From NCBI GenBank assembly GCA_945873955.1, contig CAMCFA010000017.1, positions 1 through 40,822 on the forward strand: a stretch of DNA of 40,822 nucleotides, read 5' to 3'. This stretch comes from an uncultured Clostridia bacterium. Its GTDB lineage: Bacteria; Bacillota; Clostridia; Oscillospirales; Ruminococcaceae. Below, piece after piece: positions 12,139-18,962 of this stretch. The notes under the pieces are model-generated. The model was not told where the DNA came from. It searched no databases and was given only the letters and a program-made list of their open reading frames with translations. The position numbers and the translations under genes were made by a program. Within the stretch, counting starts at the first letter, position 1. Each line of letters begins with the position of its first letter.

Positions 12139-12312
12139 TAATTAAAAAGCATTGATTATTGTACGATACCAATAAAATTTTTGTTCATTTTTACCTAAAC
12201 AGAACAAAAAGCGGCATTTTTTGGCTTATTTTGCCTTCGGAATGAGCATTACAATAATTATTAATAGTATATCATAAACAATAATAAAAATCAACCCCGA
12301 AAGGCAGCTTTG

Positions 12313-12350
12313 CAAAAAAATAAGGGCTGTTGCATTCCGCAGCAGCCCTT
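12313..12350 (-). terminator. Terminator after yajC
   Basis: On the minus strand aagggctgctgc pairs with gcaacagccctt (12-base arms, one mismatch) and is followed by a T run. It lies just beyond the yajC stop codon. Confidence 0.88.
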
Positions 12351-12360
12351 GCTGACTTTT

Positions 12361-12762
12361 TTACTTTATCTCAGCCGGCTTGTCGCCCTTTTTCTTTTTC
12401 TTAGGAGCGGGAGCAGCCTCCTCCGGAGCCTCGTGAACGGTGTTGTTCTTTGCGATAGCGGTTTTCAGAACGCGGATCTTTGTGCGGTCGCTGCCGGTCT
12501 CCAGCAGAACGGTGTCCTCCTTGACGGAAAGGACTCTGCCGATAATGCCGCCGTTGGTGATGACCTCGTCAGCAACCTGAATGTTGTTGAGCATGTTCTG
12601 CATTTCCTTGTTGCGCTTCTTCTCCGGGCGGATAATGAAGAAATAAAAGAACACAATGAGCAGCCCCAGCGGAATGATCATGGTGAGCATGCTGCCTACG
12701 GTAGCGCCGGTAGCCGCGGAGCTTGCCGCTGCTTCAGAGATAAGTGCGAGTGTTGAATTCAT
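12361..12762 (-). CDS. yajC: Preprotein translocase subunit YajC
   Basis: This 133-aa single-span accessory subunit of the Sec translocase associates with SecDF. One membrane helix (about residues 26-44, MLTMIIPLGLLIVFFYFFIIRP) is followed by the family motif RPEKKRNKEMQNMLN and the small beta domain VADEVITNGGIIGRVLSV. The C-terminal tail (about 112-133) is unusually Pro/Ala/Lys-rich. The N-terminus precedes the helix by some 25 residues, longer than in E. coli. It is monocistronic: own promoter at 12812-12840 and terminator right after the stop. Confidence 0.95.
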   Translation of the reverse strand: MNSTLALISEAAASSAATGATVGSMLTMIIPLGLLIVFFYFFIIRPEKKRNKEMQNMLNNIQVADEVITNGGIIGRVLSVKEDTVLLETGSDRTKIRVLKTAIAKNNTVHEAPEEAAPAPKKKKKGDKPAEIK

Positions 12763-12811
12763 TTAGTTGTCCTCCACATTATTGCCAAAAGGCTTTTTTC
12801 AATACATTCTT

Positions 12812-12840
12812 ATTATAGCCGAAAGTTAATGATAAATCAA
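12812..12840 (-). promoter_or_regulatory. Sigma-A promoter of yajC
   Basis: Minus-strand TTGATT (12835-12840) and TATAAT (12812-12817) have a 17-bp spacer. It is placed just downstream of the stop codon of the glycosidase-like gene at 12865. Confidence 0.8.
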
Positions 12841-12864
12841 GTGTCTTGGAAAAATTTTCACCGA

Positions 12865-14055
12865 TTATTCAGAATAAACCGTGATCTCGGAGTCGGAGAA
12901 GGCTCTGCGCACCTCCTCAAGAGCGGACCCAGAGAAGCCGGAGGCAGTCAGCCGTACCGAGAAGCTCTGCCCGGAGTACATTGCCGAAAGCCTGCCGATA
13001 AACGCCTTAGTTTCAGCGTAGCCCGCCTTTTCTGCCGGTGTGAAGTCCACCAGCAGGGAAACGGTTTTCAGCTTCTGCTTGTCGCCTGCGGGTTCAGCCG
13101 TAGTCAGCCCCTTTTCGTCGGCGAAGAGGTCTGCGCCGCTCATTTCAAGCAGCACAGCCGTGCCGGAGGGCTTCGCCGCGTCAGCGCAGGCGGAGATCAC
13201 GTTCCACAGCGCTTCCAGACGGGCGGAGCTGTCAGAAATGCTGAGCTGCCGCAGGAAGTTGGTGTAATCCTGCGGATTGAACGCCGGGTATACAGTGTTC
13301 GCGAGGATAACGCTTCCGAAGCCTGCCTCTGAAAGCTCGGCGGTTATCGCGGCGAGGTACTTCGCAGTACCCTCCGCAAACGGGTTCAGCCATGATTTGC
13401 CGCCCCGGTCAACGTAGTAGTCATGCCAGATACCGCCGTCCGCTATCATGTAGCAGATATTCTCCCCGCCGTAGGTCTGGGAGGTGCGGTCGAGCAGGGT
13501 GTTTATCCTTGCGCTGGGTGTAAAGCCCGCTTTGGTGATTATCTCGGCGATCTGCTTTGCGGTGAGCGTTCCGGTAATCTGGGACTCGGCTACGCCCTCT
13601 ACCGCGGTTTTGTAAAGGAACGAGCCGGTCTCGTCCTTTAAGGTCACGGTGACGTCCGTGTAACCGCCGTTCTTTGCGGCGGCGAGTGCGCTGTTAAGGC
13701 TCTCGGAGCTTAGCACCGCGCTTTCCGGCAGTATAAACGCGCTTGCCGATTTCGCCGACTGGGCTTCCGTAGTCGGCTCCGAGGTAGCCGCGCCGGAGGC
13801 TTCCGAAGTGCCGTCGGAGGTCTGCTCATTGGTGGCGGCGGTGGTCGGGGGATTCCATGCGGAGCTTGGCTGTGACTCGGTGTTCCTGCCGCTGAAATAA
13901 TCCACCAGCGGACGTCCCAGACCGTAGCCCAGCACACAAAGTCCGGCTATCAGCACTATCATCAGCACAACGGTGAGTACTTTTCTGCCCTTGCTTTTCT
14001 TGCGCTGATACAGGCTGTATTTCCGGTGTTTGATTTTGATGTTCTTTTTCTTCAT
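12865..14055 (-). CDS. Membrane-anchored putative glycosidase-like protein (DUF4015-like)
   Basis: This 396-aa protein has a very basic N-terminus, one membrane helix (about 25-48), a Ser/Thr/Ala-rich linker (about 55-105) and an extracellular domain. The domain resembles the putative glycosyl hydrolase family DUF4015: a WLNPFAEGTAKYLAAIT segment followed by AGFGSVILANTVYP, where that family normally has WvNPy...AkEAa..GFDEIqFDYvRFP. The usual acidic FDY is replaced by ANT, so catalysis is doubtful. It may bind rather than cleave glycans. It lies 34 bp after rnfA and is probably the last gene of the rpe-rnfDEA transcript. The fold assignment is tentative. Confidence 0.6.
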   Translation of the reverse strand: MKKKNIKIKHRKYSLYQRKKSKGRKVLTVVLMIVLIAGLCVLGYGLGRPLVDYFSGRNTESQPSSAWNPPTTAATNEQTSDGTSEASGAATSEPTTEAQSAKSASAFILPESAVLSSESLNSALAAAKNGGYTDVTVTLKDETGSFLYKTAVEGVAESQITGTLTAKQIAEIITKAGFTPSARINTLLDRTSQTYGGENICYMIADGGIWHDYYVDRGGKSWLNPFAEGTAKYLAAITAELSEAGFGSVILANTVYPAFNPQDYTNFLRQLSISDSSARLEALWNVISACADAAKPSGTAVLLEMSGADLFADEKGLTTAEPAGDKQKLKTVSLLVDFTPAEKAGYAETKAFIGRLSAMYSGQSFSVRLTASGFSGSALEEVRRAFSDSEITVYSE

Positions 14056-14089
14056 GATATCTCCGTATTGTTCTGAGGTGTTGAGTGGA

Positions 14090-14683
14090 TCAGAAATCGA
14101 CGGTGTAGCCCGCCAGCGAATAGAACGCCAGCGAAACCACGCCGATGTATATCAGCATGATAGGATATCCGCGGAAAACCTTTGGTATCTTGTCGCTGTC
14201 CAGCTTTTCCCGCGCGATATTCAGCAGGAAGCAGGCGAGGAAAAACCCAACGCCCGTGCCGAAGCCGTAGCCGAGGTAAGTCCAGATATCGCTGCCGTAG
14301 TTGGAATTAAGAAACAGCGCGCCGATAACGGTGCAGTTGAAGATCGTAAGGTGTACATACTTCTTGACGCGCTTGAACAGCTTCGGGAACACGTTCCAGA
14401 GGAACAGCAGCCCGATAATGTACAGCGCGCTGATGATACCCACATAAATAAGCGGCATGAACAGCCAGCCGTATTCCGTGGGGAGCATTGCCCTGTCCAC
14501 AAAGTAGGAGATCAGGCTTGCTATCGTGGTCATTGCCGTGATACCCAGCGTGAAGCCCACTACCGTGCCGTTCTTGCGGGAGGCGTAGATCGCCACGTTG
14601 CTGCCGAACGCCCGGTCGAAGATCGCATTCTGCACGAACACCGACACCATTGCGGCGGAGATTATCCTTGCGAGGACTTCCAT
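14090..14683 (-). CDS. rnfA: Divergent RnfA/NqrE-family membrane subunit
   Basis: This 197-aa, six-helix protein is homologous to RnfA, which in the intact Rnf complex forms an intramembrane pair with RnfE holding a [2Fe-2S] cluster. Family features include SVFVQNAIFDRAFG near the N-terminus and LTIFNCTVIGALFLN (C117) in the second repeat. The first cluster cysteine expected in G-[IL]-C-P is replaced by N29 (G27-S28-N29-V30); C117 is kept. It overlaps the rnfE stop by 1 bp. The homology is clear, but normal electron transfer is doubtful. Confidence 0.85.
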   Translation of the reverse strand: MEVLARIISAAMVSVFVQNAIFDRAFGSNVAIYASRKNGTVVGFTLGITAMTTIASLISYFVDRAMLPTEYGWLFMPLIYVGIISALYIIGLLFLWNVFPKLFKRVKKYVHLTIFNCTVIGALFLNSNYGSDIWTYLGYGFGTGVGFFLACFLLNIAREKLDSDKIPKVFRGYPIMLIYIGVVSLAFYSLAGYTVDF

Positions 14684-15318
14684 TACTCCGCCCCCTTTCG
14701 GATTAAGTCGGTCTGTTCAGAGCGGTTCCGGCGGCGGGTGGTGATCCCGCGGCAGACAGCCGCCAGAATACCCAGCAGCAGGAATCCGAAGAACGGGGTC
14801 TTAGCCGCCGGCATAAGCGGGTCGCAGACCCTCAGCCCGAACAGCGAGCCGAACGCCAGCAGCTCCCGAATGATACCCACAGCAAACGCCGCGATTGCGT
14901 AGCCGAGGACATAAATAAGCGCGTCCACCGCCATTTCGCCGTAGGGCATGAGGTAAAAGCGGCTCTCTGTCTTTGCCAGGATAAGGGAATTCACCACGAT
15001 TATCTCGATATAAATCGAAACAGTCGCCGCCGTTTCCGGGAACAGCGCTCCAAGCAGCAGCGCCGTCGGAATGTACATCACCGCAGCCACCGCAGCGTAA
15101 AGAATTATGCGCACGGTATAAACTATCCTGCGCGGCACGAACCGGCAGATAAGTATCGTGGAATAGGATATCATCAGAAAGCTGAGAGTCAGCACCAGCG
15201 CACGCTCAAAGGTAGTCGCCGCGACGACTATCGGCGCGGTCACAAGTCCGCTCATCAGCACGATATTCTGGCGAAAAAGCCCGTCAAGGCTGATCTTTCC
15301 GGAGGGTTTATTGTTCAT
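14683..15318 (-). CDS. rnfE: Divergent RnfE/NqrD-family membrane subunit
   Basis: This 211-aa six-helix protein has the RnfE start (SLDGLFRQNIVLMSGL) and order of helices. RnfE normally supplies two cysteines to the [2Fe-2S] cluster shared with RnfA. Here G-L-C-P becomes G24-L25-V26-T27, and V-V-N-C becomes V-V-N-S111, so both ligands are missing. The later GIIRELLAFGSLFG segment and a basic cytoplasmic tail are conserved. It overlaps rnfD by 11 bp and rnfA by 1 bp. rnfG, which normally lies between rnfD and rnfE, is absent. Confidence 0.85.
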   Translation of the reverse strand: MNNKPSGKISLDGLFRQNIVLMSGLVTAPIVVAATTFERALVLTLSFLMISYSTILICRFVPRRIVYTVRIILYAAVAAVMYIPTALLLGALFPETAATVSIYIEIIVVNSLILAKTESRFYLMPYGEMAVDALIYVLGYAIAAFAVGIIRELLAFGSLFGLRVCDPLMPAAKTPFFGFLLLGILAAVCRGITTRRRNRSEQTDLIRKGAE

Positions 15319-16432
15319 TGCCGTCCTCCTTGTCCTGCGGTACTTCCTGCTTTTTGCGCTTCTGGCGCTTTATCTTGCCGTCTATCGGCGGGGTGTTGTA
15401 GCGGTATTTTTCGGGGAGCTGTATCTCCTGCGTGTCGGTCAGCTTTATGCCGCCCTGCTGGGCTTTGCGCTTGCTGCCCTCAAAGGAGCTGATGTAGTTC
15501 CGCTTCCAGTAGAGAACGTTCTCAACGATAGTGTCAAAGCAGCCGGAAAGCGCATTTGTTATCAGCAGTGCGAACACGAAGCAGCCCTCTACCTGCCCGA
15601 AGTACCTCAGCATCATCACAGTATATCCCAGAACCACGCCGTATATCACTCTGGCGGCGCGGCGCTTGGGCAGCAGGTAAGGCTCTGCGGACATAAAGAT
15701 TATCCCGAACAGCAGGTATCCGCTGGAAAGCTCATAGAATACAGACATCAGCGGGGAAACATCTGCCCGCGGGTAAACCGCCGAAATAGCGCACACCGAA
15801 GCCACGCAGGAAATTACCGCGGTGAAGCTGGTGCTGTGCTTTATCAGCATACATATCCCAACAACTAGGATTATCAGTATATTCACCGTGCCGATAGCCC
15901 CGGGGACGTTCCCCATAAGGATATCAAGCGGCTGCTGGGAGGGTATGCTCCCTAATTTAATGGTGTACTCCACCGAGCGGGTGAGAGTGCCCTCATACTC
16001 CGCAAACACCGGGATTACTTCACCGGCTTTGGGGTAGTACAGCATATCGCCGGGGTAGCAAATCACCATGAATGCCGCGGCAAGCGCCGGGGGAGAGAAC
16101 ACAAGGTTGTCGTTCCCGCCGAAGATGTGCTTTCCGATGGCGATACAAAGCACCGCCGCCAGCGCGGTCAGCGGCAGCGGCACAGACGCCGGCATAAGCA
16201 TACCTGCCGACAGTCCCCAGAACAGCACCGCCGGGTCTTTATGATCGTATTTTATTTTCCGGAGCTTACAGCATACCCAGTCGCAGAGCATACAGAAGAC
16301 GACGCACAGCGCGCATACGACCAGCGGTCTTATCCCGCCGCGGAAAACCGCCGGGATAAGCAGCGCCGCCATGAACACGAAGCGCTCCAGATACAGCTTG
16401 CGCGGTTCGCGCATGGTTATGGGAGTCAGCAT
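15308..16432 (-). CDS. rnfD: Divergent RnfD/NqrB-family membrane subunit
   Basis: This 374-aa multi-spanning protein has the RnfD landmarks KHIFGGNDNLVFSPPAL (101-117) and GNVPGAIG (174-181). In RnfD a threonine in an S/T-x-A-T-P segment carries covalent FMN. The corresponding stretch here reads GTLTRSVEY (148-156), with no A-T, so flavinylation is not evident. The Glu-Ser after GN.PG..G is V-N. The last 50 residues are a long charged Lys-rich tail. Its start overlaps the rpe stop by 7 bp. A function close to Rnf/Nqr cannot be assumed. Confidence 0.85.
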   Translation of the reverse strand: MLTPITMREPRKLYLERFVFMAALLIPAVFRGGIRPLVVCALCVVFCMLCDWVCCKLRKIKYDHKDPAVLFWGLSAGMLMPASVPLPLTALAAVLCIAIGKHIFGGNDNLVFSPPALAAAFMVICYPGDMLYYPKAGEVIPVFAEYEGTLTRSVEYTIKLGSIPSQQPLDILMGNVPGAIGTVNILIILVVGICMLIKHSTSFTAVISCVASVCAISAVYPRADVSPLMSVFYELSSGYLLFGIIFMSAEPYLLPKRRAARVIYGVVLGYTVMMLRYFGQVEGCFVFALLITNALSGCFDTIVENVLYWKRNYISSFEGSKRKAQQGGIKLTDTQEIQLPEKYRYNTPPIDGKIKRQKRKKQEVPQDKEDGNEQ

Positions 16433-17094
16433 GTCGCTCCTTTCTGCGGGACCTTAAGCAGCAGGTTCGCCTCTGCCATGTCCGCAGCCTTGAACAGCCC
16501 TGTTCCTGCAACCAGAACGTCCGCGCCGGCTTCCTTAACCAGCGGGGCGGTCTTGGTGTTGATACCGCCGTCCACCTCTATTGAAAGCCCGGAAAGCCCC
16601 ATTCCGTCCGCCTTTTCCCGCAGGGCGCGTATCTTGTCCAGCGTTTCCGGCATGAACGCCTGTCCGCCGTAGCCCGGCTCAACGGTCATCACCAGCACCA
16701 TATCGCACAGCGCGAGATAGGGATATACGCTCTCTATCGGAGTCTTGGGCTTCACCGCCAGAGCGGATTTCACGCCGAGGGCGCGTATCGCTTTCAGGGT
16801 TTCAGCGGCGTCGCTAAGGCTCTCTATGTGGAAGGATATCAGGTCAGCCCCTGCTTCTGCGAAGAATTTCACCTGCTGCGCGGGATTTTCCACCATTAAA
16901 TGCACGTCAAGGAACATGTCCGTGGCGGCTCTCACTGATTTCAGCACCGGGCTGCCGTAGGTTATCTGCTCCACGAAAGCGCCGTCCATTACGTCGAAAT
17001 GTATCCAGTCAACGTTCGCTGCCTTGCAGCGGGAAAGCTCCCCGGAGATATTCGCGAGGTCGCATGCAAGCAGAGAAGCGGAAGTTTTTATCAT
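16426..17094 (-). CDS. rpe: Ribulose-phosphate 3-epimerase
   Basis: This 222-aa TIM-barrel enzyme interconverts ribulose-5-phosphate and xylulose-5-phosphate in the pentose phosphate pathway. It contains ASLLACDLANIS at the start, the metal-ligand HFDVMDG segment, LDVHLMVE with a ligand histidine, MTVEPGYGGQ, and IEVDGGIN with the catalytic aspartate. All key residues are present and length is normal. It is the first gene of a transcript continuing into rnfD with a 7-bp overlap. In many clostridia rpe instead neighbours rsgA and thiN. Confidence 0.96.
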   Translation of the reverse strand: MIKTSASLLACDLANISGELSRCKAANVDWIHFDVMDGAFVEQITYGSPVLKSVRAATDMFLDVHLMVENPAQQVKFFAEAGADLISFHIESLSDAAETLKAIRALGVKSALAVKPKTPIESVYPYLALCDMVLVMTVEPGYGGQAFMPETLDKIRALREKADGMGLSGLSIEVDGGINTKTAPLVKEAGADVLVAGTGLFKAADMAEANLLLKVPQKGATC

Positions 17095-17150
17095 TTTATC
17101 ATTTCCTTATTTTTACGGTTTTCGGGCGGGATATTCGCCCATACATATAT

Positions 17151-17179
17151 ATTCTATAATAAATATCTTTTTTCGTCAA
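17151..17179 (-). promoter_or_regulatory. Sigma-A promoter of the rpe-rnfDEA operon
   Basis: Minus-strand TTGACG (17174-17179) and TAGAAT (17151-17156) have a 17-bp spacer. The leader before the rpe ATG is about 50 nt. Confidence 0.6.
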
Positions 17180-17285
17180 TAAGGTGAGCGTTAATTTTTG
17201 CGTATTTTCGGGGGAAAGCGTGAAAATTTCCGAAATCGGGGCGAATTCCACAGCGATATTTGTATATTTTTCTCCGGGTTTGCGC

Positions 17286-17314
17286 TTGAAAAAAAAGAGG
17301 TTTAGTGGTATAAT
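17286..17314 (+). promoter_or_regulatory. Sigma-A promoter of guaB
   Basis: TTGAAA (17286-17291) and TATAAT (17309-17314) have a 17-bp spacer. The predicted start near 17321 gives a long leader of about 169 nt. Confidence 0.8.
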
Positions 17315-17320
17315 AATAAC

Positions 17321-18962
<1,642 letters not shown>

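Follow-up and report, generated by a model that had tools for sequence, protein, structure and literature searches.

An Rnf-derived RnfD-RnfE-RnfA trio lacking residues of the Rnf redox centres in an uncultured Ruminococcaceae genome and its relatives, with a possible role as a carrier or channel

The window analysed in this study is a 40,822 nucleotide stretch of contig CAMCFA010000017.1 (GenBank assembly GCA_945873955.1) from an uncultured Clostridia bacterium of the family Ruminococcaceae. It carries three adjacent, overlapping genes, here named D2, E2 and A2, which encode homologues of the Rnf membrane subunits RnfD, RnfE and RnfA (Table 1). Judging from the aligned sequences, the redox centres along which electrons pass through the membrane core of Rnf cannot form a chain in this trio as they do in Rnf. 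We see about an even chance that D2-E2-A2 is a de-electrified Rnf membrane core, which arose from a duplicated rnf operon and acts as a carrier or channel.

The assignment of the trio to the Rnf family is based on Pfam matches above the cut-off, namely PF03116 for D2 (166 bits), its sole match of this quality, and PF02508 for E2 (89 bits) and A2 (92 bits). With NCBIfam models, D2, E2 and A2 fall with RnfD, RnfE/NqrD/RsxE and RnfA, respectively, at scores far under the subfamily cut-offs (rnfD 102 vs. 207, rnfE 50 vs. 213 and rnfA 85 vs. 229 bits). Alignments to PDB entries match the trio to the Rnf structures 7zc6 and 9eri. Our own profiles for RnfC, RnfG and RnfB found no match anywhere in the window. 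An earlier sequence-only reading of this DNA had described intact, overlapping RnfD, RnfE and RnfA homologues at a locus missing rnfC, rnfG and rnfB, and the profile searches agree with it on both points.

For the [2Fe-2S] site of Acetobacterium woodii Rnf, the numbering used here (RnfA C25/C113 and RnfE C25/C108) follows PMC11889175. A2 has N29 in the C25 column and retains C117 in the C113 column, exactly as read earlier. E2 has A28 in the C25 column, with P29 aligned to the Pro that follows the Cys, and S111 in the C108 column; the earlier reading was right on S111, but its V26 has to give way to A28. The window trio thus misses the four-Cys set for an intramembrane [2Fe-2S] cluster. The [S/T]-x-A-T flavinylation motif is missing from D2, as had been claimed, but S153, which might itself be modified, is aligned to the column of the flavinylated Thr and R152 to the preceding Ala column. 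S113 and E250 occupy the riboflavin-contact columns of Asn123 and Asp249. Sequence alignment to 7zc6, 9eri and 7xk3 revealed neither a cysteine pair nor an S/T-x-A-T motif in register elsewhere. Several Na+-contact residues of Acetobacterium RnfA are also replaced in A2 (T73 by Pro, T111 by Phe), which makes Na+ an unsafe guess for the substrate.

One complete canonical rnfC-D-G-E-A-B set with an adjoining apbE was found on contig C4 of the same genome (locus L005, Table 1). RnfB, RnfC and RnfG were seen in this genome only in this cluster, to which its FMN_bind matches are also confined. The presence of the complete set makes the trio a paralogous module and not the sole Rnf of the genome. 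The case of rnfC, rnfG and rnfB serving as its only partners from elsewhere, against which the sequence-only reading had asked to be checked, is ruled out. In the canonical RnfG-like protein, both FMN_bind repeats lie in a single chain of 413 amino acids, which has no NCBIfam match at 1e-30.

A trio peculiar to the window genome was ruled out by the family-level sample and by the fetched loci of relatives. Some RnfD-like match to D2 was present in 186 of 197 genomes of the family, and a D2-grade match (best match at E ≤ 5e-25) in about 148 of them, a hand count that is to be taken as an estimate. The threshold was spot-checked on fetched loci: G027, at 2.5e-21, has canonical Rnf only; G014 and G163 contain canonical copies that match as well as 1e-30 and 2e-29, each surpassed by a better match in its own genome. 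A threshold of 1e-40 for the D2 profile is reached by 216 of 245 genomes at the order level. At the phylum level the number is 202 of 398 at the same threshold, which also bounds the matches inspected; of the 30 loci returned, 28 have the Thr or Ser that is flavinylated and count as canonical, which leaves the window and G573 as the two of the D2 type. Among the fetched loci, the D2 type was confirmed in families f1, f5 and f144, and intermediate loci occur in f148 and f152. Since D2-type loci fall in families of this order and the phylum loci are mostly canonical, the D2-E2-A2 module belongs to this order as far as sampled. Surveying relatives for the locus, as had been suggested, thus reveals a family-wide module with a stepwise history, and in phylogenetic trees the trio proteins of the relatives and of the window form a clade of their own.

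The 57 fetched D2 loci were mostly picked as good D2 matches, so that frequencies among them are biased. By a distance rule, 51 of the 57 have D2, E2 and A2 next to each other on a single strand; the other six are L133 (gene order kept, spacing outside the rule), L138 (A2 on a different contig) and the loci of four tiny genomes. The ribulose-phosphate 3-epimerase gene rpe lies close by on the same strand at 50 loci, an RnfC-like gene is adjacent at 22 and a MecA-like gene (assigned by Pfam) is on the stretch at 25. The RnfC-like gene, here named C2, was found on the same stretch for 30 of 79 D2 sequences and may go unseen where fetched stretches are short. The gene order is rpe-C2-D2-E2-A2-GH in part of the clade and rpe-D2-E2-A2-GH in the rest, including the window, GH being a gene for a protein with a DUF4015-type domain. 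With our own profiles, no G or B gene was found at D2 loci, except for a B-like match of 50 bits at L122.

Residues were compared across the clade after rough deduplication, so that close relatives remain in the counts. Loci counted as canonical if the fetched stretch contained RnfG (or RnfB together with RnfC), and 17 more were assigned by hand; the rows kept apart were two intermediate ones, four of family f146 (two for RnfA) and three with only C and D. None of the 79 RnfE-like proteins keeps both cluster cysteines and 77 keep neither, compared to both in 29 of 30 canonical proteins. In the RnfA-like clade, both are kept in 0 of 75, whereas canonical RnfA has the first Cys in 26 of 27 rows and the second in all 11 rows with a residue at that position (16 rows are gapped). 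The column of the flavinylated residue holds S (49), G (9), T (8), I (5), A (3), L (2), N (2) and R (1) in the D2 clade, as compared to T (37) and S (1) in canonical RnfD. The column before it is Ala in 2 of 79 D2 and 36 of 38 canonical sequences. The riboflavin-contact pair (N123 and D249) occurs in all 38 canonical proteins, in 45 of 79 of the D2 clade and in none of the five members of the close group of the window (window/L010, L008, L009, L011 and L012). Of the E2 proteins, 63 of 79 retain R67 of RnfE, and the E115 column holds Glu in 41 rows without C2 and in six with C2. Non-ligand residues are conserved across the clade.

Four genomes of 0.7–0.9 Mb (G068, G160, G087 and G174, which are 97, 94, 97 and 88% complete) hold the trio genes at three separate places (D2 at L139–L142, E2 at L158–L161 and A2 at L175–L178). 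Neither ApbE nor FMN_bind nor GH was found in any of the four, and RnfC was limited to one match of 17 bits in G087. The survival of the three proteins in dispersed form in reduced genomes argues that they work jointly and without a covalent flavin. The A2 proteins of these genomes have diverged strongly, but the ends of their frames resemble the conserved C-terminal stretch of the family. Neighbouring genes, named by eye, include a nucleotide-sugar dehydratase-like gene adjoining E2 in three of the four genomes, a glycosyltransferase-like gene adjoining D2 in three and a putative exported protein beside A2 in all four.

A different reduced set was observed in family f146, in which G598, G618 and G636 (95–98% complete) have a C-D-E-A set only, with GH beside it in the first two. 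These sets have Asn in the column of the FMN-bearing Thr and both RnfE cysteines are gone; ApbE and FMN_bind were not found in the three genomes. Their RnfC is above the rnfC cut-off (291–295 bits), with an altered GGxGFP motif. In the RnfD tree, the degenerate f146 set (L109–L112) lies inside canonical Rnf, with a support of 0.95 for a group that also holds L062 and of 0.56 for f146 alone, which suggests a second, independent loss. Rows with at least 35% gaps were dropped from the trees, which reduced the A alignment from 106 to 90 rows and canonical A from 27 to 11. The open frame that holds RnfE in G598, G618 and G636 (L109–L111) measures 510–521 amino acids, longer than a normal RnfE, and may be a fusion or extension. 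A third reduced form is an rnfC-rnfD pair with a gene for an HTH-type regulator nearby, seen at L164 (5733–7960, G188), L165 (6739–8978, G158) and L166 (6574–8795, G192), in genomes without an Rnf-Nqr (A/E) match. L166, the only one whose neighbours were analysed with Pfam, retains the flavinylation motif VTGATPL and an adjacent apbE, and L164 and L165 are without the motif.

These genomes bear on a possible accessory role of the trio for canonical Rnf, be it structural, regulatory or in assembly, for example by replacing RnfA/E/D to give an inactive or leak form. Canonical Rnf is indeed also carried by the window genome and by many others with two RnfD matches. However, no canonical RnfE/A was found next to the trio in G102 (94% complete) and in the tiny genomes, nor next to the separate C-D-E-A set in G598, G618 and G636, and canonical Rnf is present in G027 (99% complete) without a D2-grade match. 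An accessory role is therefore improbable.

Ratios of non-synonymous to synonymous substitution rates (dN/dS, NG86 method) of the window compared to L008 and L009 are 0.09 and 0.15 for D2, 0.07 and 0.10 for E2, 0.08 and 0.13 for A2, 0.12 and 0.15 for rpe, and 0.18 and 0.19 for GH. The synonymous rate (dS) is 0.8–1.3 in these comparisons and near or past saturation for L040 and L041. The window trio is under purifying selection, with a constraint about equal to that of rpe, the single housekeeping gene compared. Slow decay of a redundant duplicate, with pseudogenes in the making, would be in line with the stepwise loss of G, B, the ligands and, in some lineages, C2, and with the loss of the trio in G135, G028, G139, G003 and G125. 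Against it stand the dN/dS values of the trio (0.07–0.15), the conserved non-ligand residues and the retention of the trio in genomes of 0.7–0.9 Mb. We find decay scarcely credible overall, and for the window lineage it is refuted by the purifying selection. The sequence-only reading had suggested selection for a new role rather than decay, which is borne out by the ligand loss with intact frames, the purifying selection and the conservation in relatives. The ion or small-molecule transport it named as that role did not gain the same standing, as transport by the trio is what we infer from sequence.

For such a de-electrified core, we propose the following course. A duplicated rnf operon would have been stripped of its electron pathway, leaving D2-E2-A2 as a membrane core whose subunits would assemble as in Rnf. 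Without the drive of electrons, D2, whose RnfD fold has its best solved matches after RnfD/NqrB in Amt/Rh and urea channels, and E2/A2, the counterpart of the pair that moves Na+ in Rnf, would transport a small solute or ion; with the [2Fe-2S] cluster gone, they would form a carrier or channel free of electron gating. Relatives that keep C2 may represent an intermediate in which the cytosolic redox state gates or feeds the carrier, while the window lineage lost C2 too. More generally, we propose tentatively, and at slightly less than even chance, an electron-independent class of transporters made from Rnf. It would have no metal cluster or covalent flavin, stand alone with three proteins in the 0.7–0.9 Mb genomes, and have a stepwise origin, perhaps a repeated one, in which RnfC was the last to go after G, B and the FMN and [2Fe-2S] sites.

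Several observations weigh against a core of this kind. The second cluster cysteine is kept in 40 of 75 A2 proteins, and Ser is the residue in the column of the flavinylated Thr in 49 of 79 D2 proteins, the window included. The Na+-contact columns of RnfA are largely changed in A2 (Pro replaces T73 in 58 and Phe replaces T111 in 59 of the 75 proteins), which weakens the view that it is still an ion carrier. The identity of D2 to the Amt/Rh and urea channels that it matches in fold is 6–12%; a shared fold by itself shows no function, and Pfam gave no match of D2 to the Amt/Rh and urea-transporter families at E ≤ 1e-3. In the tiny genomes, A2 was identified only by our own A2 profile (43–84 bits), and the A2 of L175, the only one submitted to Pfam, had no match at 0.01. 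The trees of RnfE and RnfA place the f146 set beside the D2 clade (0.68 and 0.81), in weak disagreement with the RnfD tree. Finally, D, E and A were not found between rpe and GH in G135, G028, G139, G003 and G125, and the trio is thus a losable module that is not essential across the family.

C2 also counts against the proposed core and is the basis of its main rival. It is 348–411 amino acids long in ten of the first eleven cases and 559 in the remaining one, and aligns to RnfC (TIGR01945 at 146–154 bits in three tested, cut-off 246; 7zc6_C at 117 bits). All eight cysteines of the two [4Fe-4S] motifs are kept in 30 of 30 C2 proteins, which argues for a redox task, and the C2-bearing relatives may retain a redox role. 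In this alternative, the complex is reduced but redox-active: the [4Fe-4S] clusters of C2 would take electrons from a cytosolic donor, and a riboflavin bound non-covalently in D2 would relay them to an acceptor in the membrane. E2/A2 would be structural, and the window lineage would have lost C2 or have its role supplied by another protein. The adjacency of C2 at D2 loci fits this scheme, as do N123 in 29 and D249 in 23 of the 30 D2 proteins accompanied by C2. The riboflavin-contact pair is kept in 22 of these 30 and in 23 of 49 D2 proteins without C2, including all four tiny genomes, which makes a non-covalent flavin possible in such proteins. However, the GGxGFP stretch of C2 has changed to a DE.DG pattern in 26–27 of 30 proteins and NGAECEP mostly to D-A-x-D-D-E-P, so that the NADH/FMN motif is gone, and neither a [2Fe-2S] site nor RnfG offers a route across the membrane. 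The window lineage has lost RnfC and both riboflavin contacts, and the pair is absent throughout its close group, so that the redox-active complex cannot apply to the window unchanged. We regard it as unlikely. The earlier description of the trio as without redox cofactors applies best to the close group of the window and is qualified in relatives by C2 and the riboflavin contacts; for the tiny genomes it stands in that covalent-flavin machinery was not found, but not with regard to the riboflavin contacts, which are kept.

The immediate neighbours of the window trio are, according to Pfam, rpe and GH, and the gene order is that of an apparent rpe-D-E-A-GH operon with a candidate promoter upstream of rpe (Table 1). 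A promoter scan of positions 12200–17500 returned nine sites compared to a mean of 3.5 in shuffled sequences, which says nothing on function.

Table 1 Features of the window and of the canonical rnf cluster on contig C4 (locus L005)
Feature	Position	Strand	Remarks
D2, RnfD/NqrB-like membrane protein, 374 aa	window 15308..16432	-	ATG start, no internal stop
E2, RnfE/NqrD-like membrane protein, 211 aa	window 14683..15318	-	ATG start, no internal stop; 11-nt overlap with D2
A2, RnfA/NqrE-like membrane protein, 197 aa	window 14090..14683	-	ATG start, no internal stop; 1-nt overlap with E2
rpe, ribulose-phosphate 3-epimerase	window 16426..17094	-	PF00834, 224 bits; upstream of D2, 7-nt overlap
GH, one N-terminal transmembrane segment, Ser/Thr-rich linker, DUF4015-type domain	window 12865..14055	-	PF13200; downstream of trio
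Sigma-70-like promoter match, 10/12	window 17151..17179	-	upstream of rpe; candidate operon promoter, consensus match only
apbE	C4/L005 6512-7624		
rnfC	C4/L005 7766-9115		above NCBIfam cut-off
rnfD	C4/L005 9112-10035		above NCBIfam cut-off
rnfG-like	C4/L005 9996-11237		two FMN_bind repeats
rnfE	C4/L005 11239-11934		above NCBIfam cut-off
rnfA	C4/L005 11938-12537		above NCBIfam cut-off
rnfB-like	C4/L005 12550-13374		under cut-offs of its best NCBIfam models

GH lies downstream at 43 of the 57 D2 loci. A DUF4015 domain is known in fusion with a YkyA domain, which in other proteins is joined to polysaccharide deacetylases (PMC12700454). Both points would suit a trio that works obligately with this extracytoplasmic protein, for example as an exporter or flippase for a cell-envelope glycan. 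Yet GH was not found in the trio-bearing genomes G068, G160, G087, G174 and G102. Conversely, six of 12 genomes without a D2-grade match have a clear GH and two more a marginal one. In five of these six (G135, G028, G139, G003 and G125), no other gene of that strand separates rpe from the GH that follows it, and the persistence of GH there marks it as independent of the trio; a MecA-like gene on the opposite strand lies between the two in two of the five. In L126 and L136, GH comes after canonical rnf genes and is thus not tied to the loss of redox centres. Each occurs without the other, which rules out an obligate pairing, and we consider the envelope-glycan scheme built on it very doubtful. 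L126 and L136, both of family f146, are the two of ten canonical loci with a DUF4015-like GH homologue near the rnf set. The stretch LDSVxFP of several GH members reads LANTVYP in the window; its Asp is present in only about one third of 21 aligned GH proteins and is therefore variable rather than specifically lost in the window.

How Rnf and Nqr couple electron flow to ion movement, and whether the core alone moves anything, are open questions, for which a naturally selected core without an electron path would be a ready-made separation-of-function mutant. The trio is widespread in a large family of Clostridia, in which a normal Rnf is often present too. As its proteins match Rnf models under the cut-offs, reconstructions that infer a working Rnf from such genes could be led astray. 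A literature search limited to open-licence PMC papers found no report of an electron-free D-E-A module.

Compared to the Rnf complex (RnfABCDGE; structures 9eri from Acetobacterium woodii and 7zc6 from Clostridium tetanomorphum), the trio shares the homologous membrane subunits RnfD, RnfE and RnfA, but is without RnfB, RnfG and, in the window, RnfC. It has also lost the [2Fe-2S] ligands and the covalent-FMN motif, and several RnfA Na+-contact residues are changed; according to PMC11889175, RnfA/E moves Na+ by an alternating-access mechanism that the [2Fe-2S] cluster gates. The NqrB, NqrD and NqrE subunits of Na+-NQR (NqrABCDEF) are homologous to the trio, and PMC12174285 also describes a proposed route for ions through NqrB. 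NQR itself was proposed earlier, in PMC4014512, as an rnf duplicate that lost a subunit and changed its role. A duplicated rnf operon taking a new course thus has a proposed precedent, to which the trio would add a case with a possible new function. NQR retains the [2Fe-2S] cluster, the FMNs and riboflavin and gained NqrF (compare PMC12174285), whereas the centres of the trio were lost and no enzyme was seen to have been added. The NQR/RNF-like systems of Meheust et al. 2021 are, like the trio, partial Rnf/Nqr gene sets built on NqrB/RnfD. According to PMC8238504, they are NqrB/RnfD proteins fused to a PF00175 NAD-binding domain, located in flavinylation gene clusters, mainly of Actinobacteria and CPR. 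D2, in contrast, has no PF00175 fusion, and the FMN_bind proteins of this genome belong to the canonical cluster. Both NQR and the systems of Meheust et al. are electron-transfer systems, from which the D2-E2-A2 trio would differ as a carrier or channel.

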